64,000 bases of DNA from an uncultured Spirochaetales bacterium. Lineage in GTDB: Bacteria > Spirochaetota > Spirochaetia > Sphaerochaetales > Sphaerochaetaceae. A program made the position numbers and the translations under genes. A model generated the notes under the pieces. That model ran no database searches. It worked only from the letters and a program-made list of their open reading frames with translations, and had not been told where the DNA came from. The stretch is from NCBI GenBank assembly GCA_944392695.1, contig CALXXN010000004.1, positions 1 to 64,000 on the forward strand, in the 5' to 3' direction. Below, piece after piece: positions 11,789 through 62,973 of this stretch. Position 1 is the first letter of the stretch; each line of letters begins with the position of its first letter.

Positions 11789-11819
11789 GTGTACAGGTGT
11801 GACGCTGATTGCTGTACAC
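11789..11819. promoter_or_regulatory. Inverted repeat upstream of the giant STAND gene
   Basis: GTGTACAG (11789-11796) and CTGTACAC (11812-11819) are exact reverse complements separated by 15 bases. The right arm overlaps TACACT (11815-11820), a possible -10 box. The site lies 30 bases before the gene start, as expected for an operator, but no convincing -35 accompanies it. Confidence 0.4.
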
Positions 11820-11848
11820 TGGGTTTATCGAGTGCGCAGGAGGGGGGA

Positions 11849-35080: not shown

Positions 35081-37975
35081 TCAGTAAAGCAGTTTGACGA
35101 TGCCCTCTGCATCATCAATCGTCGTATTCATCCCACTCTCAGCATTGCTGACGAAGCAGTCATAGCCGACAATCTGGTCGAAACTGATGTGATAGTAACC
35201 ATCTCTATCACCATTGACTACGACATTGTCATAAGTAATGGTCGCTGTCCCCTGATTGCCAGGAAGTGTTACAGTAACAGGGACACTTCCACTTACACCG
35301 ACTGTTTGGAGGTTCTGCTGGCTGGTATAAGTTCCATTACCTGCATGTGTGAATCTCAAAGATCCATCTACGGTCTGCATTTCGATGTTTCCTATTCCAT
35401 CAATAGAAACAGGTCCGTTTGAACCATCAACAATCTTGATTGTGATATCTCCAAGTTCATCATAATTTATTGCAGGAGAATGAGCTGTGCTGATGCTGAT
35501 GCCTTTGTTGGAATAACTTTGTCCATCGGTGAGGAAGAACCCTCCATTTGCCCACCAGTCACCTCCAAATTTATCATTTGCTTCAAGCATGACAGTCCTT
35601 ATGGTTGTGTTGACCGCATTCAAGAGTTCAAGCGCTGAGTTGACTGTGACATCGTAGACATCAAAGGTCACTTCAAGTGGAATGCCAGACATCGGAGTGC
35701 CTGTGATGGTCACTTTTCCAGTACCTCCTGCAAATGTGACCAGCCCATTAGGAGATACTGTTGCAATGGATGAATCCGATGTCGTGTAAGTAATACCCTG
35801 CAGTGTCGCATTGGTTGGATAGACATGTGCCATGATCTGGACAGAACGTTTGGAGTCAGGATCATCACTTGTCCTTGAAGAGACACGGTAGACATTACCA
35901 GATTGGGGCAGGGTCTTGGAGGCATCTGCTCCTGTTCCATTGATGGCATCGAGCACGACGGATTCAGCTTTGACAAGCTCCTCGATGACATAGAAGGTGA
36001 GTGAGTTGTTATGAGACTGGCCATTGGCATCTTCAATCACAAGGTTCAGGGTCATCATGCCGTTCTCGTAAGCACTCCAGGTGTCCTCATAATTGAAGAT
36101 GACGTAGTTCGCTTCCTCATAGGATCCTTCCTTGACGACCTCGGTTGAAGCACCATTGTTGAGCTGCCAGATGTACTTGGTGGCGCCAGGGACAGGGGAG
36201 GCGAGGTTGATTGTGATCTTTTTGTTATCCTGGGAGATGTAGTAGATGCTGCCATCTGGGGCGAGGTCGATGTTGATACTGTCATCAATGGATGGGATGA
36301 CAAGGCTGATCGAGCCATCAGCGATGCGGATGGCATCACTCTTGGCGCCCTGCTCAGAGTCTACCTTGAAGTTATCGCCATCGTACTCTGTTGCTTTTGC
36401 GACAACAGCATAACTGTAGGTATGGGATGCGAGGACGTTTTCGTCGAGGTAGGATGTCTTCTCAGAAGAACCGATGAACGCTGCATCCCCGTTGTTGTCG
36501 AAGCGGTAGACATCGTAGGAAGTCGCATACTCACTACCAGCCCAAGAGAGGGCGATGCCATTCGACTGGGCGGTGGCGGTCGGCTTGCCAGGAGCCGCGA
36601 GACGTACAGAGATTGAAGCTTTTGCGCTGACAGACTTGTTGTCAGTGCTTGTCGCAGTGAGTGTTGCCTGTCCGGGTCGCTTTGCTGTGAAGCTGTCGCC
36701 CTGGAGGATTTCGACGACATCTGGTACATCGACAGACCAGGTGTGGGTCTGGATGCTGGCGTTGTCAGGAGTGTAAGTGACAGAGGCTGAGAAAGGAGAA
36801 CCCGAGGTGATGACACCATCAGTGACATCATTCAGACAGACCTTCATGCCACTGACAGGGACCTTTGTCCTGACGGTGAAGTCCTGGACCGCCTTACGGG
36901 AGATGAGGCCTGAGCGGTGATGGGCCTGGATGCTCACCTCATAATCGACATCAGGTGTGAGAGGGCCGATCTTGGCTGTGCTGGTGGCATCCTCCGCATC
37001 GACTTCGACTGTGACATGAGCTTCTTCTGCAGAACCATTCAGAGGCTTGTAGAAGACAGTGACAGTGTCGAAAAGTCCTGTGCGGTTCTGCCAGCTGATG
37101 TCGACATATTGCTGGGGGTTGTCACTATTGAACGTCCAGGAGGCGGAGCGCACATTCACACCATAACTGATCAGGTCAGGGGTGATGATGAAGTCACCTT
37201 GGCCATCCATGGGGCGTGAGGTGTTGCCAGATGCGACCCAGATGACACTGGGGTAGAGCCCAGAGGCGATCAGGTCCTCACCTGTGCTGTCATAGATGTC
37301 GAAGCTGACCAGCTTGGATGGTGTGACGGGAAGGGTGGCGCTGATGGTCATAGAGGTGGAGGATGTGCCAGAGGCAGGGCTGGTCCAGAGGACCGTGCCC
37401 TGTTCACCATCTTCCTGGCTTACCATCTTGATCACGATGCCACCATCAGCCATCAAATCCTGCATGCGCTGGGAACTGGAAGCGGCAGCGCTCCAGTCGA
37501 CAGGAATCTCGACAGTACCTGTGTGGCTGTCACCTGCATAGACCTGGGTGAGTGTGATGCTTATGCTGTTCGCACCGTTTGGCGCCACGCTGAGAGGAGT
37601 GTCAGCAGCGCTTGAACCTTCAAGCACCAGCTCCCCATCGGTCCAGCCCTCGACAGAGACCCTGTAGGTCCCGATCTGGACCGAGTCGATCTTGATCGAG
37701 GTCGTGCCCTCGGCACTTGCCTTCTTTGTGATGCCTTCTGGTACATCAGTCCAAACGCCATCTGAGAGGGCGGTCTCTGTCAATGTGACATCATAGCGTC
37801 CCGCAGGACGTACGGTGTCAGGACGGATCGTCCTCGTGGATGGGTCCGTGACATTTGCAAGTCCAATCGTGACAGTGCGTGTCATGTCTTCCTCAGCGCC
37901 TTTGTCGCTGCATGAAGACAGCAGGGCCAGTGCCATGATGATCAGGACTGGCAGCATCCTCATCTTCTTTCTCAT
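35081..37975 (-). CDS. Large modular lipoprotein (Ig-like/FN3 repeats)
   Basis: The 964-residue protein starts with a lipoprotein signal peptide (lipobox LSSC, Cys22). It is a string of beta-sandwich modules: early carbohydrate-adhesion-like repeats, a BIG2-type Ig domain (TWSVDVPDVVEIL ... TLTATSTDNKSV), a fibronectin III module (GIALSWAGSEYATSYDVYRF), a PKD-like module and a second BIG2 (ITYTTSDSSIATVSPNGLVTF). The C-terminal domain contains FGGDWWANGGFF and is shared with the 39963 protein. It probably sits on the outer membrane. It overlaps the upstream lipoprotein gene by four bases (ATGA), so the two are co-translated. No enzyme motif is visible. Confidence 0.85.
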   Translation of the reverse strand: MRKKMRMLPVLIIMALALLSSCSDKGAEEDMTRTVTIGLANVTDPSTRTIRPDTVRPAGRYDVTLTETALSDGVWTDVPEGITKKASAEGTTSIKIDSVQIGTYRVSVEGWTDGELVLEGSSAADTPLSVAPNGANSISITLTQVYAGDSHTGTVEIPVDWSAAASSSQRMQDLMADGGIVIKMVSQEDGEQGTVLWTSPASGTSSTSMTISATLPVTPSKLVSFDIYDSTGEDLIASGLYPSVIWVASGNTSRPMDGQGDFIITPDLISYGVNVRSASWTFNSDNPQQYVDISWQNRTGLFDTVTVFYKPLNGSAEEAHVTVEVDAEDATSTAKIGPLTPDVDYEVSIQAHHRSGLISRKAVQDFTVRTKVPVSGMKVCLNDVTDGVITSGSPFSASVTYTPDNASIQTHTWSVDVPDVVEILQGDSFTAKRPGQATLTATSTDNKSVSAKASISVRLAAPGKPTATAQSNGIALSWAGSEYATSYDVYRFDNNGDAAFIGSSEKTSYLDENVLASHTYSYAVVAKATEYDGDNFKVDSEQGAKSDAIRIADGSISLVIPSIDDSINIDLAPDGSIYYISQDNKKITINLASPVPGATKYIWQLNNGASTEVVKEGSYEEANYVIFNYEDTWSAYENGMMTLNLVIEDANGQSHNNSLTFYVIEELVKAESVVLDAINGTGADASKTLPQSGNVYRVSSRTSDDPDSKRSVQIMAHVYPTNATLQGITYTTSDSSIATVSPNGLVTFAGGTGKVTITGTPMSGIPLEVTFDVYDVTVNSALELLNAVNTTIRTVMLEANDKFGGDWWANGGFFLTDGQSYSNKGISISTAHSPAINYDELGDITIKIVDGSNGPVSIDGIGNIEMQTVDGSLRFTHAGNGTYTSQQNLQTVGVSGSVPVTVTLPGNQGTATITYDNVVVNGDRDGYYHISFDQIVGYDCFVSNAESGMNTTIDDAEGIVKLLY

Positions 37976-39750
37976 TGTCCAACCTCTATGCGGTATGTCG
38001 CAAAGCCGGAGTGGCGCTGTCCCCTGCTGTCCGTCAGGACGAGGACGAGCTGCTGTACTCCCGCTTCCGTGTCGTATATATGGTGCGGATCAGATCCGCT
38101 TATGGTCACAGTGTCAGCTGTGGAGATCACAGAGCCGTTCAACATCCATTCGACTGCCGTGATCCCTTCAATTGGCTGGAAGGTGATTGTGACTTCCTCA
38201 TCCCTTCCAAGCACAAGTCCATCAAGGATGCCTTCCATGACAATCGGAAGGTCCTCTGGTTCCTCGATGGAGATTTCGATTGATGCAGGTGGTATGGTGA
38301 TCTCCTCGGAAAGGACGCTTGATGATGAACCCGTCGCCTCATGATAGGCGGTGAGGCGGTAGCGCACAGCCCCGCCAGCACTGACATCCTTGTCAAGGAA
38401 GGAATAGTCTTCCCCGCGCTCGATACGGGCAAGCAGGCTGCCATCAGCCCTGCTGAGCTCGAAGTAGTCAGCACTGGAAGGACCTGTCCAGGAGACCAGG
38501 ACGCCTTCCTCTGTGAGTGTTGTCTTGATGTCTGGCGGGGAGAGTGTGATGGTGAGTGTCTGTGAGGCCCTGATCCTGCCGTTGTTGGCGAGGTAGGAGA
38601 GCGTCACCGTGCCAAAACCATGGACCCTCAAGTTCCCCTGCTTGTCGACCGAGGCGGTGGATGGGGCTGAGGACGTCCAGCTTCCCCCGAAGTCACTGGC
38701 ATTGGCAGGACTGGTCAGGATGCCAAGCGCCACAGAACCTCCAGGCTGGATGGATTCCACTTCATCTGGCAGCTGGATCCTCAGCGATTTCAAGGAGACA
38801 GGACTCAGGAAGGGGCCCGCTTCTGACACCACCCCTGTGATGGCAGCGTCCTTCATCGTCCATGCCTTGATACTTACAGACGTCCCTTCCTTGAGCCCTG
38901 TGATCACTCCTGTGAACGTTCCATCTTCAGCTGATGCTTCGATGCTTTCCTTGTCGAGGATGGTCCTGTGGCTTGCCTGGTCATCACTCCATTCGATGAC
39001 GACCTGGTCGTAATCGAAGGAAGGAGGTGTGAAAGAGTAGGCGAGGCTGTCAAGGGAGAAGCCGTTGTAGGCGAGGCGGAGGTCTTCGATCTTCTCTGGC
39101 TTGCTGAGCACGGTTCCTGCCGGGGAGAAGGCCACTTCGGAACCCGTCGCCAGTGAGAGTGGCAGCGCCTCACTGTAGCCGATGATACCCCCATCCAGGA
39201 TGAAACCTAGGCGGAGCGTGGCTTCTGTGAAGCTTTCCACTTCAGCCGTGAAGCTGATCGTCCCCGCCTCGAAGGGGCCTTCCTCCCTGTGGAGGATGTT
39301 GTCTTCTGTATCGACAATGATGAGCGCATCCACACTGTCGACACCAGAGAAGCCTGTGCTGACGACCAGGGTGCCTGTCGCACCTGGATCTGCTGTTGGT
39401 ACCAGTTCGATCACATGGCTGCTGTCGCTGCCTGCGCTGACTTCGACCTCCACGGAGCCCTGGGCTGCGACGTGCTCCCCAAGATAGGCGTAGGCGGAGG
39501 CCACATAGCGTCCTGGCAGGACGGCGCTGAAGACGGCTTCACCCGTCCTGGCGTCGCTTTGCTCCTCCTGGATCCTGATTCCCCCCTGTGCCGTGGAGAG
39601 GGTGAAAAGATAACGTGTTGGTGTCTGCGATGAGGCAGCGGCCTTGACTGTGATTGAAGAGTCAGGGTCGTAGGAGAATGAGCAGGAGCTGAGGCCCAGC
39701 ATCAGCACTCCTGCGATCAGGCTTGATATGAAGGCCATCACACGTCTCAT
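37972..39750 (-). CDS. Modular lipoprotein, partner of the 35081 gene
   Basis: From the ATG at 39750 the protein has 592 residues and a clean signal peptide with lipobox LSSC (Cys23); the frame extends upstream to 39894 but only through the divergent promoter region. Modules include BIG2-like (GGSWTSSAPSTASVDKQGNLRV), FN3-like (GVLVSWTGPSSADYFELSR) and a last Ig/PKD-like module (ITAVEWMLNGSVISTADT) like one in its partner. Its stop overlaps the next gene's start by four bases. An exact 30-bp inverted repeat lies 7 bases upstream of the ATG. Function unknown; a surface adhesin or sensor is likely. Confidence 0.8.
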   Translation of the reverse strand: MRRVMAFISSLIAGVLMLGLSSCSFSYDPDSSITVKAAASSQTPTRYLFTLSTAQGGIRIQEEQSDARTGEAVFSAVLPGRYVASAYAYLGEHVAAQGSVEVEVSAGSDSSHVIELVPTADPGATGTLVVSTGFSGVDSVDALIIVDTEDNILHREEGPFEAGTISFTAEVESFTEATLRLGFILDGGIIGYSEALPLSLATGSEVAFSPAGTVLSKPEKIEDLRLAYNGFSLDSLAYSFTPPSFDYDQVVIEWSDDQASHRTILDKESIEASAEDGTFTGVITGLKEGTSVSIKAWTMKDAAITGVVSEAGPFLSPVSLKSLRIQLPDEVESIQPGGSVALGILTSPANASDFGGSWTSSAPSTASVDKQGNLRVHGFGTVTLSYLANNGRIRASQTLTITLSPPDIKTTLTEEGVLVSWTGPSSADYFELSRADGSLLARIERGEDYSFLDKDVSAGGAVRYRLTAYHEATGSSSSVLSEEITIPPASIEISIEEPEDLPIVMEGILDGLVLGRDEEVTITFQPIEGITAVEWMLNGSVISTADTVTISGSDPHHIYDTEAGVQQLVLVLTDSRGQRHSGFATYRIEVGQ

Positions 39751-39756
39751 GGGCAA

Positions 39757-39786
39757 ATCGAACAAAAACCTATGATATTGTTCGAT
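39757..39786. promoter_or_regulatory. 30-bp operator-like inverted repeat, copy A
   Basis: ATCGAACAA, 12 bases, TTGTTCGAT: a perfect 9-bp inverted repeat in the divergent region between the 37972 and 39963 lipoprotein genes. The same motif with the same spacing occurs at 48029-48058. The arm centres are 21 bases apart, two helical turns, as for a dimeric regulator. Confidence 0.8.
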
Positions 39787-39870
39787 ATCTTTCAAGTGGA
39801 AAAATGAGGAAAATGGTACGCGATGTTCATAAAGTGCATTCCGTGGTAAGGAATTATCAAGAGAAGTAGG

Positions 39871-39878
39871 TTTTTTTT
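39871..39878 (+). repeat. T8 homopolymer in the divergent promoter region
   Basis: Eight T bases stand about 10 bases upstream of TTGGCA (39888-39893), the best -35 candidate for the rightward lipoprotein operon (TAATGC 16 bases further). Length change here could alter promoter spacing. Confidence 0.5.
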
Positions 39879-39962
39879 CTGACAAAATTGGCACAAACTG
39901 TCACCTTCATAATGCCTACATATTGCATTCGCTATGGTTTTCCGGGTAGAAATACTCCGCTT

Positions 39963-42900
39963 ATGAGACGGGCGCTGGCATCAATCTTATTGATCTCACT
40001 TATCATCATCACATCCTGCTCGCTTGCGATAGAACCAAGGGACGAGGATGATGTCGCCCTTTCGCGTCCACTGGCCACGCCAGGAGGTCTTTCAGGCACT
40101 GTGACCTCACGTTCAGCTTCAGGGGCCACCGTGTCACTGGGATGGGATGTGGTTGAAGGCGCTTCTGCCTACATCATCTATTACCAGACTGCTGTCGACA
40201 GGATGCGGGGTGAGGATCCTTCAACAAGCGTCAGCAGTACAGCATCATCAAGTCTTGTCCTTGACAGTGACGAAGTCTACCTCTTCCAGGTCGCATCGCT
40301 TTCTGGAGATGGGAGGGGGTCTGAGGCAAGTGGGCTCCTGGCGCTCTCAACACTCTCCACGATAGAGGATGTCACCGTATCGATCAATTCGAACCAGGTC
40401 TCCTTCATCATACGCCACGCCTCTGCCTCCTTCGAAGGCGAGGCCCTTGAGACCCCTGTCTTCTCATTCACATTGAGGGAGGCTGATGGCGGTGATGCCT
40501 ATTACAGTGATGGCAGCCTTGCCAGTGAGTCTGACCCTGTCGTCCTGCGTGGCTCCTCCTACAGCTTCCCAAAGCCACTTGCCCCTGCAAGCGACTACGT
40601 GCTCAGCATCTCGATGGAGATTGGCGATGAGGTCATTGATACATATGAGCTTTCGTTTTCAAGCGACCTTGTCTATGAACCTGGGGCGGTGTCTGACCTG
40701 GAAGCCAGTTCCGGTGATGCTTCTTCGATAAAGGTCACTTTCAAAGCACCTCCGATCAACGAAGGACTTGATGAAGGCGACATCCAGCGCCGCTTCCGCA
40801 TCACCAGGCATTCCCTGGGGGAGGATGACTACACGGTCCTCCCTGAGACATTGCCACCAGAAGGTGAGGGTGATGTCTTCACCTTCACTGACTCGGATCC
40901 AGCCCTCGCTCCCAACACAGCCTACTGGTATTCTGTCACGAGCTACTATCTCTTTTCTGACAGCGCCGTCTACTACGCGCAGTCAGCAGCTCCTGTTGAA
41001 TCGGGAGAGGCTCATCTCTTCTCCGTGCCCGTCGATGTGGACGCCTCTCTTTCATTGACCAAGTCTCATGATGAGACAGATGACGGTCATCAGGAGTATG
41101 AGGCGGTGGTCAGCTTCCGCTTCCCCTTCGGCCTCGCCCCTGATGACACGGTGGCTCTTGAACAGCGTGAGCGCTCCTTCTCTTCAAACAGCAGTGAGTG
41201 GACTCCTGTCGAGGACTTCTCCCTTGAAGCGGATGGAGAGGATGTCACGCTTTCATACAGCTTCCAGCAGGATGCGGAGGCCTCCCGTGATGAACATAGC
41301 TGGTCTTACAGGGTGACAGTGACATCTGTAGGTGGTGCCAGTTCATCTGAAGTCTCCAACATCGTCACGACGACTGCTTCCGAGGTGCATGATGACTTGG
41401 TCACAGGCTTCAGTGCGACTCAGGACCTTGCAGGACGTATCGTACTATCCTGGACTGCGTCAGAGGGAACCTCGCTGCGCCTGCTGCGTTCAACTTCCGC
41501 AGACTTCCAGGATTCCGAGGACCTCAGCATCAGCATTCCTGGTGGTCATGTCGACACTGACATCGTTGACGGTGAGGGCTATCACTATGCTTTGATCGCG
41601 GAAGCCGATGGCCATAGGGAGGCGCACTATGTCGAGGCCTCCTCGCTGCCTGCTGTATCAGGACTTGTGGCAAGCCAGGGCCGCTATGCCGACAGGATCA
41701 GCCTCAGCTGGGAGCCTGTGGTCAACGTGACGTCTTACGAGGTCCATGTATCGGCGGATCCGGCTTCGCTTGATGATGCTGACAGCTCCTCAATCGAATG
41801 GCGTGGTCCTGTCGCCACTGTCGAGGGCTCTTCTTTCGACTGGGTCGATGAGGATGTCGGCACATCAAGGGCAGGGCGTCCCTGGCTCTTCACAGTGAAG
41901 CCTGTCGACAGGACCGGGCAGGTCTCTTCCCATACAAGATCAATCGCAGAAGGCAGCCTGCTAGGTCCTGCGACGATCGTGGTCGAGGCTTCTGATGCCA
42001 CATATGCTGAAGAGATCCGGGTGAGTTGGAACGAGGTTCCTGGTGCTGGCCAGTACATCGTCAGGGCCTATGCCTCACAGGACGCCATCGACCCTGTGCT
42101 CGAAGAGCGTATCAATGCGCAGGATGGTTGTTTGTTCATCCTCCGGAGCGATGATGAGCGGCTCCGTGAGGCTTCAATCACAGAGCCTCTTTCCAGAAGC
42201 TACTGGTTCTCCATCATTCCACAGTACAATGATCAGGTGTCTGATACCGGCACCGACCGTGTCGAAGGACGCTGGATTACTCCACCTTCCTCCATAAGCG
42301 CCACCAAGGCGGCATCCAGTGAGATCACTCGTATCAGCTGGAATCCTGTCGAAGGAGCGACGCTGTACAACGTCTACCGCCGTGTGCTTGGTTCGTCAGA
42401 TGACTGGACCTTCGTCGGCTCATCCAGCCAGGACTATCTCGAGGTCATAGACCGTGGCAGTGGTGACAGGGCTGTCAATGACTACTACGAATACACTGTG
42501 AGCACCTCCATAGGCCGCTCTGAAGGCCCTGTCCAGGATGACTTCGACGGGGAGGGTGGGGACGCAGCCAATGTAGGCTTCCCCCTCTACCACCCGGAGT
42601 CTGTCAGGATCATAGATGTGGATCATGATGGCACGCCCTGGTACCTGGTGAGCTTCTACGACAACAGCTACGCGACAGGCTACCAGGTCTCATCGCCACT
42701 GCGTCCAGAAGCCCTTGTCGTCGACAGGACCTCCTTGCACTCTTCTCCAATCGACATCGCAGATGCTGTTGATGGCTCTGCCTGGATCGAGGATGGGCTT
42801 GTAAGCCTCTACATGCAGCGTCCACATGTCAGGGACTCTGTCTATATCGACATATCAATCTCGAGCATCAACGATGATGCCATCTTCGAGACTGACAAGG

Positions 42901-43400
42901 TCTCCCAGCCAACCACCCAGACCCGCCGCCCTGACAGCCTCCTCCCAATAGAGGAGCTCAACCTCGCTGAGAGCGCCATGCGTCAGGCTTTCCGAACTGC
43001 TGATGGTCTGGTTGGTGGGGACTGGTGGACGATGAATGGGGGCCGCTACACTTTCACATCAGGTACTGCGGTCACCGCATCTGGTGCTGGAGGAAGCGAT
43101 GCGAGCCTTGAACTGGATGCTTATACATACTCAGGCATCGTGGTCTCTGGCACGCTCTACTTCCCCTTCAGGTACTATGTCGGTGGAGATGGTTATCTCT
43201 GGGAAGATAATGTCGACAGGATCAACACAGCAGCTGACGCACCTATGACGATACGCCTGCCACTCGATTACGGTACGGTCCAGGTCCACTTCAACGACCT
43301 CGATTACCGGAGTGATGGCACTCCTGGGTCATATACAGTTGTTGATTCCAGTGGAAGCCATACGATCCAGCAAGGTGAGTCGGAGGTCGGCATACTATGA
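39963..43400 (+). CDS. Very large FN3-type lipoprotein, first gene of a four-gene operon
   Basis: The 1145-residue protein begins at the ATG at 39963, which gives a good lipoprotein signal (lipobox ITSC, Cys19); the frame upstream to 39888 is non-signal. It holds about eight fibronectin III-like modules, seen in repeated cores such as SLGWDVVEGASAYIIYY, SWEPVVNVTSYEVHV, SWNEVPGAGQYIV and SWNPVEGATLYNVYR. The C-terminal domain contains GGDWWTMNGGRY and PMTIRLPLDYGTVQV and matches that of the 35081 protein. It likely faces outward at the outer membrane. The next gene starts in its stop codon (ATGA). No ribosome site is clear. Confidence 0.85.
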   Translation: MRRALASILLISLIIITSCSLAIEPRDEDDVALSRPLATPGGLSGTVTSRSASGATVSLGWDVVEGASAYIIYYQTAVDRMRGEDPSTSVSSTASSSLVLDSDEVYLFQVASLSGDGRGSEASGLLALSTLSTIEDVTVSINSNQVSFIIRHASASFEGEALETPVFSFTLREADGGDAYYSDGSLASESDPVVLRGSSYSFPKPLAPASDYVLSISMEIGDEVIDTYELSFSSDLVYEPGAVSDLEASSGDASSIKVTFKAPPINEGLDEGDIQRRFRITRHSLGEDDYTVLPETLPPEGEGDVFTFTDSDPALAPNTAYWYSVTSYYLFSDSAVYYAQSAAPVESGEAHLFSVPVDVDASLSLTKSHDETDDGHQEYEAVVSFRFPFGLAPDDTVALEQRERSFSSNSSEWTPVEDFSLEADGEDVTLSYSFQQDAEASRDEHSWSYRVTVTSVGGASSSEVSNIVTTTASEVHDDLVTGFSATQDLAGRIVLSWTASEGTSLRLLRSTSADFQDSEDLSISIPGGHVDTDIVDGEGYHYALIAEADGHREAHYVEASSLPAVSGLVASQGRYADRISLSWEPVVNVTSYEVHVSADPASLDDADSSSIEWRGPVATVEGSSFDWVDEDVGTSRAGRPWLFTVKPVDRTGQVSSHTRSIAEGSLLGPATIVVEASDATYAEEIRVSWNEVPGAGQYIVRAYASQDAIDPVLEERINAQDGCLFILRSDDERLREASITEPLSRSYWFSIIPQYNDQVSDTGTDRVEGRWITPPSSISATKAASSEITRISWNPVEGATLYNVYRRVLGSSDDWTFVGSSSQDYLEVIDRGSGDRAVNDYYEYTVSTSIGRSEGPVQDDFDGEGGDAANVGFPLYHPESVRIIDVDHDGTPWYLVSFYDNSYATGYQVSSPLRPEALVVDRTSLHSSPIDIADAVDGSAWIEDGLVSLYMQRPHVRDSVYIDISISSINDDAIFETDKVSQPTTQTRRPDSLLPIEELNLAESAMRQAFRTADGLVGGDWWTMNGGRYTFTSGTAVTASGAGGSDASLELDAYTYSGIVVSGTLYFPFRYYVGGDGYLWEDNVDRINTAADAPMTIRLPLDYGTVQVHFNDLDYRSDGTPGSYTVVDSSGSHTIQQGESEVGIL

Positions 43401-45577
43401 TCCGGGTCCTGATCCTCCTCTTGCTGCCTCTCCTCACATCCTGCAACATCGACATGCTGACAGGTCCTGGTTCACTGAAGCCTGGGGATGATCATCATCA
43501 GGCGGGTGAGGTGGCCTTCTCTGGCGAGGCCCCACGCCATGTCATGGCCAGCCAGGCCTTCCATGATGACAGGATCGTCATCACCTGGGATGCTGTCGCA
43601 GGTGCCGACTATTACACCATCGAGAGGGCGGCGAGCCAGGTCGAGCCTGTGCAGTCCATGGCTGACAGCCTCAACTGGTCACGGCTCTCCGCATCAACGA
43701 CAGGTACGAGCCTTGTCGATGACTCGAGCCAGCTGGAGGCTGGATGGTACTATGCCTACCGTGTGACCGCACATGACTTCGAGAAGGGGGCGGGGGACTC
43801 ATCTTCAATCTGCCAGGGCTCCCTCCTCGCAGCACCATCGACTGTCACTGCAAGCAAGGGTACGGACAGCTCCAGAATCAGCATCAGCTGGACGCAGCGA
43901 CCTGGTGTCAGCTCCTATGAGATCAGGGTCTCGGAGGACAGTGACACGGTCAGCCTGGGCCAGGTCATCGCGAGGGTGCGTCAGAGCACGGATGGTGAGC
44001 CGAACGCTTACCTCAACAGCTACACTTACACCACTTCCTCTGATGAACGTGGCCGCACATTGTACTTCGCTGTGACGGCAGTGGGTGGGGATGGCTCATC
44101 AAGGAGCGGCCTCAGTCCTGTCAGCAGTGGTTATACCAGGGTCGTTGGCGCCCCTTCAGCCCCAAGCCTCGTCTCGATAACACGGGGTGACTCAACAGAG
44201 GCGGTCACCCTGGCCTGGTCACCTGATGACAGTGCCAGCTCTTCTGACGAGGTCTCCTACATTGTCATGAAAAGCTATCCGGGAAGCAGTGAGAGCCAGA
44301 TCTTCCCTATGTACGAAGGCCAGGAACTTGAGACCGATGAGTCTGGTAACTACATCCTCTCGGACAGCGATGTCAGGGAGAATGTGCAATACACCTATTC
44401 AATCACAGCATCAAACAGCATAGGCATGAGCGAGGCTTCTGTCCAGGACGGTTACCTGCTCTCAGCACCGCAGTCGCTTTCCTTCATACCCACAGGTGAG
44501 GGTTATGCCCTTTCTGCTGTGCTCCCCGTTGGTGCGGATCCGCTTTGGACCTACCGTGTCAGGATGACGGAGGAGGACGGGTCTGTCAGCGAGGGTGAGT
44601 TCTCTCCTGACGAGCTTTCATCTTTCGCAACCACCTTCGCGGCAACATCTGCAGATGAGGCCTCCTACCAGGATGAGCTGAGGACGCTTGAGGTCTGGAC
44701 TGTGAACAATGGACTGTCCTCGGCATCTTCCGCCTCCGCATCCATCGCAGGCATCCCTTCGACCCCGCGGATCACGGCAAGCCAGAACAAGTACACAGGC
44801 CTTGCCGCCAACTCCGCAGGTGTCTGCCCTGTGGAAATCAACCTTGCCGCTGGTGCGGGCTACGCTCCAGCATCCTATCTTGTCACCAGGACGGAAGACG
44901 ATGGAAGCGGCCAGCGTGACTTCACTGTCGATGCGCTTTCCGCACTCTTGAATGACAGCGATGGGACTGAAGTGGGGCAGGTCTACAACTACAGCGCAGC
45001 AGCCTGTGATGCACTTGGACGCAGGAGTGCCCAGACCGCTTCTGTCATGGGTTATGGTTCGATCACGGGTGAAGCCTTGATAGAGAACTTCGAAGACCAC
45101 ATCCTCAAACCCTGGGAGGCTCCAAGCAAGCATCCTGAGTACGTCAGTGGTGGCAAGTCATCGATCTGGTCCTACATACGCCAGGCGGGCATGGGCAGCC
45201 TTGGCAGCGCATCAGAGACTGGGTCTCCTTTGAGGGATGCCCCCAATGAAGGACGTACTGGTACGATCAGTTACAATGCGACACCTGATGGCATCGGTGG
45301 CAGTGTCAGTTTCACTTACACCGCCTATTACTCAGAAGCCACAGCATCCTTCTTCGACCAGGACTTCTACCTTGGCCGGGATGCTTCCTACTCGATGAAC
45401 GTGTCTCTTTCTGGAAGCGGATCTGTAAGCGCCCAGTCCTTCGAAACCGCTGGCATGTACCCGGCGACGATCGACTTCTCAAGGCTCTCTGTATCGAACA
45501 ACGCCTTCACAGGGCGCTACCTACTTGTCCAGCACCATCAGGATGCTGTCGATGTCTCATACGAGGTGAGGGTATGA
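43397..45577 (+). CDS. FN3-type lipoprotein, second gene of the operon
   Basis: The 726-residue lipoprotein (lipobox LTSC, Cys16) has four or five fibronectin III modules (ITWDAVAGADYYTIERA, SISWTQRPGVSSYEIRV, TLAWSPDDSASSSDEVSYIV), then a C-terminal beta-rich domain with LIENFEDHILKPWEAPS, GGSVSFTYTAYYS and YPATIDFSRLSV. That end has the same general shape as the terminal domains of its large neighbours but without the GGDWW motif. ATGA overlaps join it to genes on both sides. Confidence 0.83.
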   Translation: MIRVLILLLLPLLTSCNIDMLTGPGSLKPGDDHHQAGEVAFSGEAPRHVMASQAFHDDRIVITWDAVAGADYYTIERAASQVEPVQSMADSLNWSRLSASTTGTSLVDDSSQLEAGWYYAYRVTAHDFEKGAGDSSSICQGSLLAAPSTVTASKGTDSSRISISWTQRPGVSSYEIRVSEDSDTVSLGQVIARVRQSTDGEPNAYLNSYTYTTSSDERGRTLYFAVTAVGGDGSSRSGLSPVSSGYTRVVGAPSAPSLVSITRGDSTEAVTLAWSPDDSASSSDEVSYIVMKSYPGSSESQIFPMYEGQELETDESGNYILSDSDVRENVQYTYSITASNSIGMSEASVQDGYLLSAPQSLSFIPTGEGYALSAVLPVGADPLWTYRVRMTEEDGSVSEGEFSPDELSSFATTFAATSADEASYQDELRTLEVWTVNNGLSSASSASASIAGIPSTPRITASQNKYTGLAANSAGVCPVEINLAAGAGYAPASYLVTRTEDDGSGQRDFTVDALSALLNDSDGTEVGQVYNYSAAACDALGRRSAQTASVMGYGSITGEALIENFEDHILKPWEAPSKHPEYVSGGKSSIWSYIRQAGMGSLGSASETGSPLRDAPNEGRTGTISYNATPDGIGGSVSFTYTAYYSEATASFFDQDFYLGRDASYSMNVSLSGSGSVSAQSFETAGMYPATIDFSRLSVSNNAFTGRYLLVQHHQDAVDVSYEVRV

Positions 45578-46008
45578 TGAAGAAAGTATTGATTACAATC
45601 ATGAGCCTGGTCGCACTTGTATCATGTGAGTACATTCCTGACTACAAGTTCTCCGCTTCCATACCCTCCGACCTCCTTGCGGCGAGCTATGCCTACATGG
45701 TGGAGGGGAGCCGTGATGAAGCCCGCTTCATCCTGACGCTTTCACCATCTGGCACGTTCTCATTCAGCACTTATGACAGTGACTACCGGCTCCTGCCATC
45801 CAGTGGGGTCTACAGCGCCAGCTATTCCTCATACACGGTGCTTGCCGCTTCCGGTGTCCTCCATTTCTCGAACATGGAGCAGGGGACAAGTGTCGATGCA
45901 TCCTTCTCCTGGCAGACCGATGCTGTTTATGATGAACCGACGCTCACCATAGATATCGGCAGGGGGCGTTACACACTGCGCTACGCAGGGGAGGCGGGTA
46001 ACATATGA
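45574..46008 (+). CDS. Small lipoprotein, third gene of the operon
   Basis: The 144-residue protein has a lipoprotein signal peptide (lipobox LVSC, Cys18) and one small beta-rich domain (SFSTYDSDYRLLPSSGVY, LTIDIGRGRYTLRY), the look of a lipocalin-like or immunity-like beta sandwich. It has no FN3 module. Joined by four-base overlaps to both neighbours, it is probably a fixed-ratio subunit of whatever the operon builds. The family is not recognised. Confidence 0.75.
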   Translation: MMKKVLITIMSLVALVSCEYIPDYKFSASIPSDLLAASYAYMVEGSRDEARFILTLSPSGTFSFSTYDSDYRLLPSSGVYSASYSSYTVLAASGVLHFSNMEQGTSVDASFSWQTDAVYDEPTLTIDIGRGRYTLRYAGEAGNI

Positions 46009-46880
46009 TCAGACGTGTCATCCTCCTCATGGCAGTTTCTGCCTGCCTCCTGATGCCACTTGGTGCAGCAGATGATGTCGCCTCTGTCCTTTCTGATGTG
46101 CAGCGCTTCCTCATCTCCTCTGGAGAGGTGACAGTAGGACAGGTCCCAGGTGAACCCGTCCGTGTCGTCACATACACGACCAGCGCAGGTGCTGACTGGG
46201 ATTCAATCGACAGCCGGATCCGTGAGCTTGTCGACAACATGGAGCGTCCCCTGACAGAGGAGGAGGTCTCCACCATAGTCAGCCGTCTCGGGGAATCGCT
46301 TCCTACGACATACAGCCTTACAAGTGCAGACATCGATGCGATTGCTGTACGTGTCCATGAGATGATCGAGGAAGAAGAAGCCCAGCTGGCAGCTGAAGAG
46401 GAAAAAGAGCTCAACAATGGCTTCTTCTTCGATGGCTGGGCGCATGCGACACTCTTGCGCAAGGCTGACATCGTACCTGGTGGCACCCTCGCCCTTGGCT
46501 GGAAGAGCGGGAACTTCCTAACCAGCGCATATGCCCGTTTCGACTACTTCCTCAAACCACTGGGGTCAAGCACAGGACGCTATGCGACCCTCGAACTCGC
46601 ATTCGAGCCAGGTATTTCAGTGGAGTCGATAATATCATCACAGGGAACGACAGATGTGAAACTCTCATTGGACTTCGGCTACTACATCCAGCTTCTTGAG
46701 CGTAGTGGCCAGGCTTCAGTCTTCCACATCTCCTACAATGGCTTGATGCTCCGTCCAACCCTGGCTGCCTCATTTGACATCGGCTTCATCAACATCGAAG
46801 CAGGTATCTACTACCAGACCGCAGTCTACCCCCGCTACACAGACTATGATGGCTTTGGAGTGTATCTGAAACTCTTCTAA
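46005..46880 (+). CDS. Putative outer-membrane barrel, fourth gene of the operon
   Basis: The 291-residue protein has a type I signal peptide (cleavage after LGAA), a periplasmic helical region with an acidic coiled coil (VHEMIEEEEAQLAAEEEKELNN, about 110-135), then about eight amphipathic strands ending in DYDGFGVYLKLF. The terminal Phe and alternating aromatic pattern fit an outer-membrane beta barrel. It could anchor or export the three lipoproteins encoded before it. A strong terminator follows 12 bases later, so the operon ends here. Confidence 0.7.
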   Translation: MIRRVILLMAVSACLLMPLGAADDVASVLSDVQRFLISSGEVTVGQVPGEPVRVVTYTTSAGADWDSIDSRIRELVDNMERPLTEEEVSTIVSRLGESLPTTYSLTSADIDAIAVRVHEMIEEEEAQLAAEEEKELNNGFFFDGWAHATLLRKADIVPGGTLALGWKSGNFLTSAYARFDYFLKPLGSSTGRYATLELAFEPGISVESIISSQGTTDVKLSLDFGYYIQLLERSGQASVFHISYNGLMLRPTLAASFDIGFINIEAGIYYQTAVYPRYTDYDGFGVYLKLF

Positions 46881-46891
46881 GGCAACAAAAA

Positions 46892-46918
46892 AGCCTCCTG
46901 CTTGAGTGGCAGGAGGCT
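46892..46918. terminator. Bidirectional terminator
   Basis: A perfect stem AGCCTCCTGC/GCAGGAGGCT with loop TTGAGTG, flanked by AACAAAAA on the left and TGGGATTTT on the right, ends the four-gene operon and the convergent 46939 gene. Confidence 0.9.
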
Positions 46919-46938
46919 GGGATTTTGTTACGCAGGTT

Positions 46939-47886
46939 TTATGCTTCAGTCTTTTCGGTGAGTATTGCTGTGACTTTCATTATAACAACATCAGCTTCAA
47001 CCGTGAGCTGTTTTGTTCCTGAGGTTGTTTCTGACTGTGTAACAGTGATATTGATAGGGAGTTGGAATGGAGCGTTATTCATCTGGACATTATTAAGTGT
47101 TGCAATCCATTCTGTGTCTGTACTGGCAGTGTTGACAACAATATCTGCTTCATTGGCTGAAACTTTTATTCCAGTAGATGGATCGTCTGGATTCTGTGCA
47201 GTTAGATACACCATGATAGTAAACTGAGTATCTGTGACATCAAGAGCAAGTTCGCCTATTGGAGTTTCCAAATCTGAAGAATTGTAGGCGGTTCCAATAT
47301 ACGATGGGGTTGGCTCCCGAATCCAGCTTGGAATCTTAGACTCCTCTGTAGCAGAACCATTTACGATATCAGCAATCCTCTCACTGAATGAAGCCATGGC
47401 TTTTACAAGATCTTCATTGGAGATGGCCAGTTCAGTGCCTTCAGTATCTGAGATTGTAAGACCATCGGCGGAGACAACAGAGAGAGCCAAATCATCTTTG
47501 TTGACTCCAAATTTGACAGCACCACTGATTTTGTACTCAGTTGCCCCAATTACGACGGTGATTTCTGCACTTGCGTTAAGTTGCGAATTGTCAGCGTCAT
47601 ATGTAATGGAAGCTTTTGAATCTGCTTTAATGACATCTCCTACTACAAGGCTTTCGTTATTAGCAAGATCAGAGTCCACTATGGTCTTGTCTTCACTAAA
47701 AGAGATTGTGTTTTCCTCTGAAGGTGTTCCAAGAGACATCATTGCAAATGCTCTTGTGGCGACAACTGCTCCTGTTATAGATGGGGTTGATGGGTCTTCT
47801 GTGCTAGGACTTTGGGTTTCTGCATTACAGCCGACTAACGCTAGTACCGCTATGATGCTGATTAGGACAAGCAATGTCTTCTTCAT
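46939..47886 (-). CDS. Lipoprotein of unknown function under operator copy B
   Basis: The 315-residue lipoprotein (lipobox LVGC, Cys20) begins at the ATG at 47886 with AAAAGGAG about 11 bases upstream; the frame runs up to 48147 without support. After the Cys comes a Ser/Thr/Pro linker, then a beta-rich domain with repeated strand motifs (ASITYDADNSQLNASAEITVVIG, TEYKISGAVKFGV). It is AT-richer than the neighbours. Its promoter has a very good match, with the inverted repeat just above the -35 box, a position suited to an activator. Confidence 0.78.
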   Translation of the reverse strand: MKKTLLVLISIIAVLALVGCNAETQSPSTEDPSTPSITGAVVATRAFAMMSLGTPSEENTISFSEDKTIVDSDLANNESLVVGDVIKADSKASITYDADNSQLNASAEITVVIGATEYKISGAVKFGVNKDDLALSVVSADGLTISDTEGTELAISNEDLVKAMASFSERIADIVNGSATEESKIPSWIREPTPSYIGTAYNSSDLETPIGELALDVTDTQFTIMVYLTAQNPDDPSTGIKVSANEADIVVNTASTDTEWIATLNNVQMNNAPFQLPINITVTQSETTSGTKQLTVEADVVIMKVTAILTEKTEA

Positions 47887-47983
47887 GTTCTTTGTTCTCC
47901 TTTTGAACATTTTGTACTGGGTCTTGATAACGTGTCTTAGAGGATTAATTTCCCTCAGTGGGCACGGGGTGACCACGAAAAAT

Positions 47984-48012
47984 ACGATAGGGAGGGGGTG
48001 CATTCTTGTCAA
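47984..48012 (-). promoter_or_regulatory. Promoter of the 46939 lipoprotein gene
   Basis: On the minus strand TTGACA (48012-48007), a 17-base spacer and TATCGT (47989-47984). This perfect -35 lies 16 bases below operator copy B and leaves a leader of about 90 bases. Confidence 0.75.
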
Positions 48013-48028
48013 CGGAGAATGAAGGTGA

Positions 48029-48058
48029 ATCGAACATCTTTTATCTGAAATGTTCGAT
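48029..48058. promoter_or_regulatory. 30-bp operator-like inverted repeat, copy B
   Basis: ATCGAACAT, 12 bases, ATGTTCGAT: a perfect 9-bp inverted repeat, the same as copy A at 39757 except for the innermost base pair of the arms and with identical spacing. It lies between the divergent lipoprotein genes 46939 and 48274. Confidence 0.85.
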
Positions 48059-48125
48059 AACTTGCCAATTATAGAATAAAATTGATATTTATTTTCTTGT
48101 ATATGTGCAGAAGTTTTCTGACATA

Positions 48126-48208
48126 TTGCATATGCTTTGTAATACATGTACTGTGCAAGAGAGGATGAATAGGTCTAAAGACCTATGTCCTGAGGGACAA
48201 CTTTTTTT
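48126..48208 (+). promoter_or_regulatory. Promoter and attenuator-like leader of the 48274 gene
   Basis: TTGCAT (48126-48131), 17 bases, TACTGT (48149-48154). The leader then holds AGGTC-TAAA-GACCT (48171-48184, with the outer pairs) and TGTCC-TGAG-GGACA (48186-48199) followed two bases later by seven T bases (48202-48208), a small intrinsic-terminator shape well before the gene. A second copy of ATGTCCTGAG lies at 48258. Confidence 0.45.
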
Positions 48209-48273
48209 ATCAAGATTCTTGGTGAAATGGTTGTTGAAATTCTTGGACCAAGGACAAATGTCCTGAGAGAAAA

Positions 48274-50154
48274 GTGAAGACTTCGATTATGAAAATCAAA
48301 TCTTGGTTGGCTTGCTTAGTGATAGCAGTTTTGCTGGCATCTTGCTCTGCGGAAATTGTTTCAAGCTTGCCGCCTGAGGATGTTGCTGATTCTTCTGCTA
48401 CCGTGGAAATAATCAGCAGAGGAGCTGACAACCTCACTATTAGTTTTGACCCTGTGCCTTACGCTAAGAGCTATTGGTACACGGTTGGTGATAGTGTTGA
48501 TTACACAGCGTGCGATATCACCGTTGATGGCAATAAATTGACCACGGTGATTGATGTTGCTTCTCAAACATCAGGATATTTTGTCCTATATGGAAGTACA
48601 GCTACCAGCGCAGATGATACAGGATTCACCGCGGTGCCTGTTGCAACTGTAGATTACACTCTTTCCCTCGCAAATGTTGATATAAGTGAGTACGCTTATG
48701 TTTCTGCTAGGACCGAAGATGGTGTATTAATCGGCTTCAAAAACAATATTGACACAACACAGGCAAAATTCAGGGCTGATTTTGACCTCAGTGATCAGCT
48801 TCCCGGAATTGTAATCGACAATCCATCAGAACTTGAAATTCCGCTCGAGGATCCTAATCAGTCTTACACTTTTTACCTGTTCTGGGCATTATCAGATGAG
48901 GATTTCAATTCCGAAATGTATGCAACCCTTGAAGTAGGTCAGTACGATTCATCTCTTGTAGCTGATATGAGGCTGACAGCAACTGATGATGGGTTCAAGA
49001 TTACTGAAATACCTGGAAATGTTTCTGCAATAGATTTAAGGAAGTCTATTACTGGTGATTCAACTGAATACGAAACACTGGTAACTGTGGCTGTTTCTGG
49101 TGATGAGGCATTTGTCCCATTCTCTAATCTTCAATCTCTTGAGACAGGAAGCTTTTATGCGGCAACTTGTGATGGTGTGATCAGTAACATAATGATATAT
49201 ACAGTCCCAGTTACGGAGCTGTCCAGGACCGAGAATTGGAAGAGTGTGGAAATAGGTGTCATTTTTGATGATCCAGATTATGTCCAGTCACTTAGTGTGA
49301 TTGGACAGGCAAATGTAACCGCATATATCAGTGATTCCAAAGATTCTATTGTGATAGAAGGGCTAGATAGCAATAGCACTTACAATAGAATAACTGTGCG
49401 CGTTAATGGTGATTCTAATCTGGATTTTTATATTGAAGATGTAAATACAAGAAGTTTTGCAGAGGTTGGGACTTTCAGCTGGGAAGGGGCATTTGCTGCC
49501 TCTCCGAGTGTTCAAACAAATTTCGTTATTCGTGTTGAAGCATCTCCAGAAGGGAGTGACTACCCATATTACATATACTTCGATGAGTCTGATGCAGAAG
49601 TAATGAGACAGGTTGAAAAAGGTAAGATTACCAAAGGTCAGAAACTTCGCATCATGCCTCTGGTTGATAGCTCAGAGGGGCTTCCTGATGACATACGTGA
49701 ACCAAAGACTGTCAATGATCCCATGGTCAACTTTAAGAGTGGAATGGCTGGTTCTGTAAGTTTTGAAACACAAAACGCTGCATACCGAATTAATTCTGTT
49801 AAATGGAATAGCATGGCAAATGGTAATCTTGACGCTACATTTGGTTTGCCATCGAAATGGTACATCGATGAGCCGGATACAAATTCAAACAATGATATAG
49901 TAACTACTGTTACACTTTCAGTAGCCTTGGGTGTTGACAATGAGACAATTACAACATTTGAATTTGGTGAAAGATTTGTTGATGGTGTTGCTCAACCATA
50001 TATTCGGTTTGAAAACAAGGCAGGTGATGAAGGATTGGCTTATTTGGGGCTTCATAAGAATAACAATCCGCAGAACATGGAATTTGGCGATGACTTACCC
50101 GATGACGATGTTCCATATAACTGGTATCTGACCCCTGCATCAGAGGAGGTGTGA
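48274..50154 (+). CDS. Lipoprotein of unknown function with beta-rich modules
   Basis: The 626-residue protein has a lipoprotein signal (lipobox LASC, Cys24 from the GTG at 48274; an ATG five codons later is also possible). The first module resembles a fibronectin III core (NLTISFDPVPYAKSYWYTV); later modules are beta-rich and not recognised. Composition is AT-richer than the 35-46 kb lipoproteins. The next gene, an outer-membrane barrel, starts one base after its stop, so the pair mirrors the lipoprotein-plus-barrel order of the operon at 39963-46880. Confidence 0.8.
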   Translation: MKTSIMKIKSWLACLVIAVLLASCSAEIVSSLPPEDVADSSATVEIISRGADNLTISFDPVPYAKSYWYTVGDSVDYTACDITVDGNKLTTVIDVASQTSGYFVLYGSTATSADDTGFTAVPVATVDYTLSLANVDISEYAYVSARTEDGVLIGFKNNIDTTQAKFRADFDLSDQLPGIVIDNPSELEIPLEDPNQSYTFYLFWALSDEDFNSEMYATLEVGQYDSSLVADMRLTATDDGFKITEIPGNVSAIDLRKSITGDSTEYETLVTVAVSGDEAFVPFSNLQSLETGSFYAATCDGVISNIMIYTVPVTELSRTENWKSVEIGVIFDDPDYVQSLSVIGQANVTAYISDSKDSIVIEGLDSNSTYNRITVRVNGDSNLDFYIEDVNTRSFAEVGTFSWEGAFAASPSVQTNFVIRVEASPEGSDYPYYIYFDESDAEVMRQVEKGKITKGQKLRIMPLVDSSEGLPDDIREPKTVNDPMVNFKSGMAGSVSFETQNAAYRINSVKWNSMANGNLDATFGLPSKWYIDEPDTNSNNDIVTTVTLSVALGVDNETITTFEFGERFVDGVAQPYIRFENKAGDEGLAYLGLHKNNNPQNMEFGDDLPDDDVPYNWYLTPASEEV

Positions 50155-50155
50155 G

Positions 50156-51427
50156 ATGAAGAGAGTCCTTCTCACAATCTGTTTCTTGGTTTTGGCTTAC
50201 ACCTCTGTTTTCGCATCAATGGTGCCTTTCAATGATTCTTACTTTGACAAGGACAGTGTCTTCTCATCTCCCGCCAGGTTGATTGAGTCAGCAGGTGTCA
50301 CCCATTTCGGATTTGAAGTAGAAGCGATGAGTGCTTTTGACTATCTGTCTTACATCACTGATCCTTCTGCAGAGCTCAGGGCTGCGTCTAATGACCTCTA
50401 TGAGATACTGATGAATGGAGATGTGGCATTCTGGGAAAAGTATCATGGTTATCTACAGAGTATTTTCTCTTTTGACAACAATGGTAATTTTCCAACGTGG
50501 ACTGGAAGCAACCAGGACAGGTATCTTGTTGATGTCCGCGCTTACCTACGTGATTCCTATGCCAACCGCTTCACAGAGGCGCAGAAGGGACTTGCTGTCT
50601 TGAATGCGGCTTCGAATACGGATTTGTTCTCGACGTATTCACGTGATGAGCTTTATGCGGATACTGTCCTCCGGTTGAACCTCTTTGGTGGCGTGGTCTA
50701 TGAGAATGGATTTGGTTGGGACCTGGGATTCAATGCGGGCTTGAAGATGCCTGAGGACATGCTCTCGAGTGGAAACAGTTTGATGGCGTTCGATATCTAT
50801 GGTGATGTTGGTTATGCCTTCCATGTGTTCAGTGAGCGTTTCACAGTTGGTGCGAGCCTTGGACTCAACCTGTCGTTCCAGTCGAACCTGATGAACAGCA
50901 ACATGCTCCTTGCCCGTTACAACAATGATGTCCTGAGCGTTTTTGACCAGGATTTCAGACTTGGTCTTGGATTCAGCTTGGACTTTGGTACGATGTATCG
51001 TCATAACGAGGAGCTGGCTTTCACTTTCGACCTGGTCAATGTGGCGACTTTCAGGACTTATTATGACCTGGCTCCGACTGACTTCGTCGATTATGATGGC
51101 TTCGACAACGATGGCAACACTTATTACCAGCCTCTTGATTTCATCATCCGCGCCCTGTGGGACAGGGGGCCTTACCACGTGAGGGTTGAGTTCGGCGATG
51201 TCATCAACCAGGTGATCTGGATGAATGAGCTTCCTTCTTATTCCTTTGACTTCTTCATGGTTCCCAAGGTCTATTTCGATTACGACCTCACCCCGGACCT
51301 GACACTGAAGACAGGTCTTGAATACCTGAGGTTGTTGTTTGGTGTCGAGTGGCAGGGCCTTGAGGCTGAACTTGCAGTCATGCTTGACAAACCTGGTCTT
51401 GGTTTGACTGTTGGCTGGTCGTTCTGA
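50156..51427 (+). CDS. Putative outer-membrane beta barrel
   Basis: The 423-residue protein has a type I signal peptide (cleavage near SVFAS) and then many short amphipathic strands (LRLNLFGGVVYENGFGWDLGFNAGLKM, FTVGASLGLNLSF, DFRLGLGFSLDF), ending in LGLTVGWSF with the terminal Phe of outer-membrane proteins. A helical insertion lies at residues 60-150. It could be a porin-like or lipoprotein-translocating partner of the 48274 protein. GAGGTG precedes the ATG. A terminator hairpin follows. Confidence 0.75.
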   Translation: MKRVLLTICFLVLAYTSVFASMVPFNDSYFDKDSVFSSPARLIESAGVTHFGFEVEAMSAFDYLSYITDPSAELRAASNDLYEILMNGDVAFWEKYHGYLQSIFSFDNNGNFPTWTGSNQDRYLVDVRAYLRDSYANRFTEAQKGLAVLNAASNTDLFSTYSRDELYADTVLRLNLFGGVVYENGFGWDLGFNAGLKMPEDMLSSGNSLMAFDIYGDVGYAFHVFSERFTVGASLGLNLSFQSNLMNSNMLLARYNNDVLSVFDQDFRLGLGFSLDFGTMYRHNEELAFTFDLVNVATFRTYYDLAPTDFVDYDGFDNDGNTYYQPLDFIIRALWDRGPYHVRVEFGDVINQVIWMNELPSYSFDFFMVPKVYFDYDLTPDLTLKTGLEYLRLLFGVEWQGLEAELAVMLDKPGLGLTVGWSF

Positions 51428-61913: not shown

Positions 61914-62450
61914 ATGGAGATAAGAAGCACAGACAGGGAAGGCTTCAGGCTGGTGTACGGCAAGTGCTATCCGGTCCTGGTCAAGATCTGTTACCACATC
62001 ACTTACGACATGGATGTGGCTGAGGACCTGGTCCAGGAGGCGTTTGAGCGTTTCTACCTGAAGAACATGGGCTTCCCCTCCGAGGATGATGCCAAGTACT
62101 GGCTGATCCGGGTCGCGAAGAACCTGGCCCTCAACCATGTGCGGCGTTCCAAGAGGGAAGGCGCCATGGTCGACAAGGTCAAGGCCGCCGCTGTCACCAA
62201 GCCTTCAGCAGGTCATGATGGTGAACGCCTGCTGATGGAAGGGGAGACGGTCAAGGAGGTCAGGGCGGCGATCAAGGCGCTGCCTGAGAACCTCAGGATG
62301 GTGATCATACTCAAGGAGTATGGCCATCTTGACTACAAGGCGATTGGACGTGTCCTTGGCATCAGCGAGGGCAATGTGAAGATCCGGGTGCACCGGGCGC
62401 GCAAGAAGCTCGAGGAGTCCCTGTCAGGAGATGAAGGCTATGTGTATTGA
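61914..62450 (+). CDS. ECF-type RNA polymerase sigma factor
   Basis: The 178-residue protein has the two DNA-binding parts of sigma70 family group 4: region 2 (VAEDLVQEAFERFYLKN, YWLIRVAKNLALNHVRRSKR) and region 4 (LPENLRMVIILKEYGHLDYKAIGRVLGISEGNVKIRVHRARKKL). It should direct transcription in response to a signal, held by the anti-sigma factor encoded next. The two genes overlap by 11 bases, so their synthesis is coupled. What it senses cannot be told, but the envelope-rich gene content suggests an envelope signal. No good ribosome site is visible. Confidence 0.93.
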   Translation: MEIRSTDREGFRLVYGKCYPVLVKICYHITYDMDVAEDLVQEAFERFYLKNMGFPSEDDAKYWLIRVAKNLALNHVRRSKREGAMVDKVKAAAVTKPSAGHDGERLLMEGETVKEVRAAIKALPENLRMVIILKEYGHLDYKAIGRVLGISEGNVKIRVHRARKKLEESLSGDEGYVY

Positions 62451-62973
62451 TGAGGCTTTGTTGTCAACTTACCTGGATGGTGAACTGAAGGAGCCATACA
62501 AGAGCCAGACCGAGGAGCACCTCTCCCATTGCGCCGCCTGCAGGGCACGCCTGGAGAAGCTCAAGGCGCTGGGACAGCTGCTTGAGGCGGACAGCATCGA
62601 TGAGGTGGAGCTTTCACGCGCCAAGGAGAAGACAGCTGGCATACTTGAGGGCAAGTTCTTTGTCGAAGGTGGCAAGAAGCCATCCTTCCTGCGCCGCCGT
62701 ATCGAGATGGGGCTTGGAAGCATGGTGACCGCAGCGGCAGGCCTTGTCGTCGTCTTCATCGGAGGCTTTGTACTCTTTGGCAGCTCGCGTGCCCAGACAA
62801 GCGAGATCATACCCTCCTACACGGTCAATGCGGACAGCGCGAATGTGCACTTCGTATCGAGCCCACAGCAGGGTCTCGACGCCTATTCGCTTGAAGAGAT
62901 ACTCAGCTATCTCGACAGCCGTGGCTACAATGTCGACATCTCCCTCAAGGGTGTGCAGCCCATAGGACAGTAA
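62440..62973 (+). CDS. Anti-sigma factor with zinc finger and one membrane helix
   Basis: The 177-residue protein starts at the ATG at 62440, with AGGAG about 12 bases upstream (a second ATG at 62431 is too close to it). The N-terminal zf-HC2 domain has the His-x3-Cys-x2-Cys zinc site (HLSHCAAC) of ZAS anti-sigma factors. A membrane helix follows at about 94-115 (MVTAAAGLVVVFIGGFVLF), then a periplasmic tail of about 60 residues with no known domain. It should sequester the upstream sigma factor at the inner membrane. Confidence 0.9.
   Translation: MCIDEALLSTYLDGELKEPYKSQTEEHLSHCAACRARLEKLKALGQLLEADSIDEVELSRAKEKTAGILEGKFFVEGGKKPSFLRRRIEMGLGSMVTAAAGLVVVFIGGFVLFGSSRAQTSEIIPSYTVNADSANVHFVSSPQQGLDAYSLEEILSYLDSRGYNVDISLKGVQPIGQ

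Follow-up and report, generated by a model that had tools for sequence, protein, structure and literature searches.

TetR-family proteins often repress RND efflux operons by binding palindromes. The operators of RND operons controlled in this way (AcrR, TtgR) are ACA...TGT palindromes that stand before the efflux operon and are bound by a dimer; that of AcrR reads ACATACA-N8-TGTATGT. Broader control over the cell surface is known from enterobacteria, where MarA/SoxS/Rob, CpxR and OmpR are examples of one factor acting over efflux, porin and surface genes. Long operators with widely spaced arms have also been described: LytTR sites (AgrA type, 9-N12-9) consist of a pair of 9-bp elements separated by about two turns, and the BirA operator (TTGT...N14-16...ACAA) is a long inverted repeat with a gap of 14-16 bp. 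Here, we describe a putative operator from gut spirochaetes that resembles each of these in part. It is likewise an ACA...TGT palindrome before an RND efflux operon, with dimer binding proposed, but the gap is long (ACA-N14-TGT) where that of AcrR is short, lipoprotein operons are targets as well, and the regulator gene is not adjacent. The enterobacterial regulators belong to another phylum and use another type of site, and nothing points to homology or to a similar signal. LytTR sites are direct repeats, whereas the elements here are inverted in every site; the half-sites of BirA differ in sequence and orientation, and the targets here are not biotin genes. No account of such a regulon was found in the searchable literature. 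The operator and its regulon appear ordinary in kind, and the predicted regulon is well supported by conservation.

The window (the whole stretch of DNA that was analysed, 64,000 nt) comes from the 2.31 Mb genome of an uncultured Spirochaetales bacterium, whose congeners include Candidatus Aphodenecus pullistercoris (G009). The locus comprises, in order, a threonine synthase gene, a MatE gene, a leftward pair of Big_2 lipoprotein genes, operon 1, a small leftward lipoprotein gene, operon 2 and a galactokinase-like gene, and several congeners retain this order. The leftward pair forms an operon on the minus strand, encoding lipoproteins of 592 aa (Big_2; 37972-39750) and 964 aa (Big_2 and fn3; 35081-37975). 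Operon 1, on the plus strand, encodes a lipoprotein of 1145 aa with fn3 domains (39963-43400), a second of 726 aa with fn3 (43397-45577), a small lipoprotein of 144 aa (45574-46008) and an exported protein of 291 aa (46005-46880). Orthologues of the last of these end in DGFGLYIKLF or similar, a C-terminus typical of outer-membrane barrels, from which we infer that it may be a barrel itself. The minus-strand gene divergent from operon 2 (46939-47886) encodes a lipoprotein of 315 aa with a weak match in one relative (G015). Operon 2, again on the plus strand, encodes a lipoprotein of 621 aa with a CSAEIV motif (48289-50154) and a predicted outer-membrane beta-barrel (50156-51427), the predicted structure of which (pLDDT 88) matches a FadL/TodX-like fold (E 4e-8, TM 0.39, 9% identity). 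This resemblance is one of fold only, as the protein has no FadL-family sequence match and no Pfam family. The barrel is conserved, has a helical insert and is always paired with a 600-aa lipoprotein. Elsewhere in the window, a protein of 2257 aa with an AAA domain and TPR repeats is encoded at 11627-18400, and an ECF-type sigma factor gene followed by one for a zinc-finger (zf-HC2) protein that is likely the cognate anti-sigma factor lies directly 3′ of cysS (61914-62973).

The operator occurs at two places in this locus. Copy A (39757-39786) has the leftward lipoprotein pair on one side and operon 1 on the other, and copy B (48029-48058) is flanked by the 46939-47886 lipoprotein gene and by operon 2; both are listed without a strand. 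The two share the form ATCGAACA-N14-TGTTCGAT, which corresponds to ATCGAACAA-N12-TTGTTCGAT in copy A and to ATCGAACAT-N12-ATGTTCGAT in copy B, while their central spacers (AAACCTATGATA and CTTTTATCTGAA, respectively) are not the same. The window sequence thus confirms the positions and exact arms that the first-pass annotation had given for these palindromes. Both copies stand between divergent lipoprotein genes, as it had stated, and a signal peptide and lipobox are found at the start of each of the four flanking genes. The distances that it reported also hold. Six bases separate copy A from the ATG of the leftward lipoprotein gene (39750), and copy B is 16 bases upstream of TTGACA-N17-TATCGT (48012-47984), a predicted minus-strand promoter of the 46939-47886 gene that was read directly from the sequence.

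Within the window, copies A and B are the sole matches at up to three mismatches (shuffle mean 0.06; two matches in none of 100 shuffles), and in the whole genome they are the only two sites with zero or one mismatch. Looser searches of the genome return background, with 16 sites in the three-mismatch class against 12 in the control and fewer relaxed sites with one mismatch than in the control. The R1 model gives copy A an E-value of 7e-5, the best in the genome, and copy B one of 0.014. When CGAACA and TGTTCG are allowed any gap from 0 to 30 bases, the genome holds three matches: copies A and B (gap 14) and one with a gap of 12, which sits within a permease-like ORF. A near match with a spacing of 13 at 51996 is also intragenic. 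The scatter of copies inside genes that the first-pass annotation had named as evidence against an operator is therefore not seen in this genome.

Conservation before the lipoprotein operons was assessed in related genomes. A contig search with an alignment of the operon 2 barrel identified named relatives; one with an operon 1 protein as query gave no match. A blind scan for the operator with at most one mismatch in 60 related genomes finds 15 further sites, 11 of them within ORFs and four intergenic; all four intergenic sites (G015, G001, G013 and G030) are directly upstream of operon 2 orthologues. From operon 2 upstream regions we derived the relaxed motif AWCRRACA-N14-TGTYYGWT. In 15 such regions, allowing one mismatch, nine have a spacing of 14 and every other spacing occurs three times at most (shuffle mean 0.00), a count that is partly descriptive because the motif was drawn from those same regions; the blind scan and the tests that follow are free of this limit. 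A good 14-spaced site is absent in the operon 2 orthologues of G010, G110, G103, G072 and G086. Searching 16 congeneric genomes for the exact relaxed motif gives 12 sites against one in the control, and all 12 precede envelope genes, namely operon 1, operon 2, an outer-membrane-protein-like gene (G008) and the efflux operon (four genomes). Operon 1 has been relocated in the genome of G013, and the operator is still found upstream of it. Overall, orthologous operons have the operator upstream both in congeneric genomes and in one other genus; another genus of the family, g16, matches Candidatus Ornithospirochaeta. Upstream of operon 2 in G009 and G008 (L076, L078), there is a second, weaker copy of the site 72-73 bases further upstream, about seven helical turns away. 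What look like tandem second sites in G002 and G012 fall on a likely promoter, TTGAAC-N17-TATGTT, and were excluded from the counts.

The efflux operon encodes HlyD, AcrB-type and TolC-type proteins (RND) and most genomes of the genus have orthologues of it. A matrix trained solely on lipoprotein-class sites gives its upstream regions a mean best score of 16.1, against 4.6 +/- 0.75 for shuffles (z = 15). The score peaks again at a spacing of 14, and a secondary peak at a spacing of 10 is put down to A-rich inner bases that imitate a shifted half-site. A palindromic operator therefore precedes this RND operon, as in the TetR-regulated systems. In the genome of the window, the efflux-operon site (ATCATACA-N14-TGTCTAAT; G000:C8:41427-41461) lies 100 bases upstream of the operon. 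The site model, run over this genome at E-values up to 10, finds three places only, i.e. copy A, copy B and this efflux-operon site, which belonged to the training set of the model, though it had been located via orthology rather than by the model. In the genus, the model also located sites on which it had not been trained. In three genomes, such a site lies in the gap that separates enolase from a probable porin gene (z = 5). Operon 1 is preceded by one in G001, G010 and G005, as is a lipoprotein gene adjoining rpmA in three genomes (z = 8) that are close relatives and thus not fully independent. The gene next to enolase is called a probable porin from its signal peptide and general appearance, and its product has no Pfam match. 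The first-pass annotation had suggested a regulon of surface proteins under one factor, an idea that conservation across genomes supports and whose scope it extends: with efflux, outer-membrane-protein-like, probable porin and further lipoprotein targets, the predicted regulon is wider than surface proteins and covers the cell envelope.

Since related gut spirochaetes have the site at the same kinds of genes, the two palindromes are very probably operators of one DNA-binding regulator shared across envelope genes. The element combines what is expected of a transcription-factor operator: a motif of fixed geometry, related genes downstream and conservation across species. Its spacing is fixed at 14, while the spacer is mostly unpaired and not conserved. 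Heterotypic sites (CGAACA with CAGACA; G002 copy B and G005 copy B) have two half-sites that both fit the motif in arms that do not pair fully, and in the efflux operons the site is followed by a conserved TATACT (-10) just before the start codon. Together, the fixed spacing, the unconserved spacer, the heterotypic arms and the position upstream of a -10 speak for binding of double-stranded DNA by a protein dimer. Most likely, the regulator would be a homodimer bound to a pair of 8-bp half-sites (AWCRRACA) on one face of the helix, their centres 22 bp apart, with the A+T-rich spacer not being read base by base.

Which protein this might be is suggested by two close relatives (G013, L181:3425-3964, and G001, L182), in which a TetR-family gene lies about 1.2 kb from the site before the lipoprotein gene. 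That its product is the regulator would be a more specific form of the operator explanation, not an alternative to it. The protein has a TetR_N domain, its gene is close to the site in both relatives, and an efflux target fits a common role of TetR proteins. Against this, rplU and rpmA separate the gene from the site in both genomes, no TetR gene was seen beside operon 1, operon 2 or the efflux operon, and TetR genes are common. The adjacent or divergent TetR gene that typifies TetR-regulated RND operons is not seen at these operons; among the genes near the sites, Pfam identifies no HTH regulator gene adjoining operons 1 and 2, and the ORF lists of four efflux regions, read without profiles, contain no obvious regulator gene. 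Seen near a single target and in two relatives, the gene is no more than a lead, and we consider it rather unlikely that this protein is the regulator.

The same palindromes could instead act as RNA, in the form of a 5′ untranslated hairpin, a terminator or an attenuator. Their arms are complementary to each other, and the predicted transcript includes them in its first ~35 bases in most relatives of copy B; moreover, in G009 and G008 changes from GA/TC to AG/CT are paired across both arms. An RNA element is nevertheless hard to reconcile with a spacing of exactly 14 around a mostly unpaired, unconserved spacer, with the loss of pairing through heterotypic arms in copy B of G002, G005 and G012, and with the efflux sites, whose position upstream of the conserved TATACT puts them outside the likely transcript. 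A terminator role, the other point that the first-pass annotation had named as counting against an operator, finds no features in its favour: an intrinsic terminator has a GC-rich hairpin and then a T run, while the operator arms have three G+C in nine bases around a 12-base loop and no T run follows 3′ of the window copies. Rfam identifies one tRNA only in the window, and no family matches the operator. We therefore regard an RNA element as improbable. Less probable still is that these are sites of a known regulator such as LexA. The half-site of DinR/LexA, the Gram-positive SOS box, is CGAAC, paired with GTTCG, and the operator half-site agrees with it. However, that box requires CGAAC-N4-GTTCG, while the gap between CGAAC and GTTCG is 16 here, and the CGAACA/TGTTCG pairs in the genome of the window have gaps of 14, 14 and 12 only. 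The targets, furthermore, are envelope genes and not SOS genes, and in relatives the half-site drifts to CAGACA or CAAACA. The copies could also be recombination sites, with 9-bp arms and a 12-bp spacer, at which inversion or deletion switches surface genes. Two sites with identical arms 8 kb apart around surface genes would suit this reading, but there is next to no chance of it, as the spacers of the copies differ and so provide no common crossover region (a tyrosine-recombinase pair has an identical central overlap), the site remains tied to promoters even after operons move (G013, G001, G010), the order threonine synthase-matE-locus-galactokinase is stable, and many genomes have single sites.

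How a dimeric regulator bound to these operators would act can be judged from promoter positions, which are predictions of a simple sigma-70 scorer. In seven relatives, the site before operon 2 spans positions of about +3 to +32 relative to a predicted start; the promoter concerned is top-ranked in G009, G012, G002, G013 and G001 and lower-ranked in G005 and G008. In the genome of the window, G015 and G030, the operon 2 site is upstream of the best promoter prediction. Copy A falls within the predicted leftward promoter (-26 to +3). The activator role that had been proposed for copy B is unsupported, as the equivalent site lies just after the predicted start in most relatives, a repressor position. 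In addition, and as a correction to the first-pass annotation, copy B also overlaps the -35 of a predicted rightward promoter of the 48289 operon (TCGATA-N17-TAAAAT; 48054-48082, plus strand). Given the +3 to +32 placement in most relatives, copy A inside the predicted leftward promoter and copy B overlapping a predicted -35, the factor would be mainly a repressor at operons 1 and 2. The efflux-operon site ends about 65-70 bases upstream of the start codon, and the porin-gene site is about 240 bases upstream of its own. Because these sites are farther upstream, with a conserved -10 downstream of the efflux site, the factor may have a second mode at both; at the efflux operon the factor may activate or act in some other way.

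Besides the operator, operons 1 and 2 share a second element, ACATATTGCATNNGCTNTG, that was absent from the first-pass annotation. The genome of the window has two copies only (up to two mismatches), in the same orientation on the plus strand: ACATATTGCATTCGCTATG before operon 1 (39918-39936) and ACATATTGCATATGCTTTG before operon 2 (48121-48139). The homologous loci of relatives yield nothing better than chance-like matches with 3-4 mismatches. The TATTGC within the element may be part of a promoter. Further downstream, the operon 2 leader (48172-48273) contains an imperfect direct repeat of 29 bases and small hairpins (GGTCTAAAGACC and TGTCCTGAGGGACA), after which comes ACTTTTTTT; the region is a possible attenuator.

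Little is known about how uncultured gut spirochaetes control their surface, and the operator provides a short DNA bait for the regulator. In the predicted regulon, surface lipoproteins and outer-membrane barrels come together with a probable porin and a drug-efflux pump, i.e. the layer that meets the host, bile and antibiotics. Tentatively, the palindromes might point to an undescribed envelope regulator of gut spirochaetes that represses lipoprotein and outer-membrane operons and works differently, perhaps as an activator, at an RND efflux operon and a porin gene. If this is true, surface coat, permeability and efflux would be switched together.
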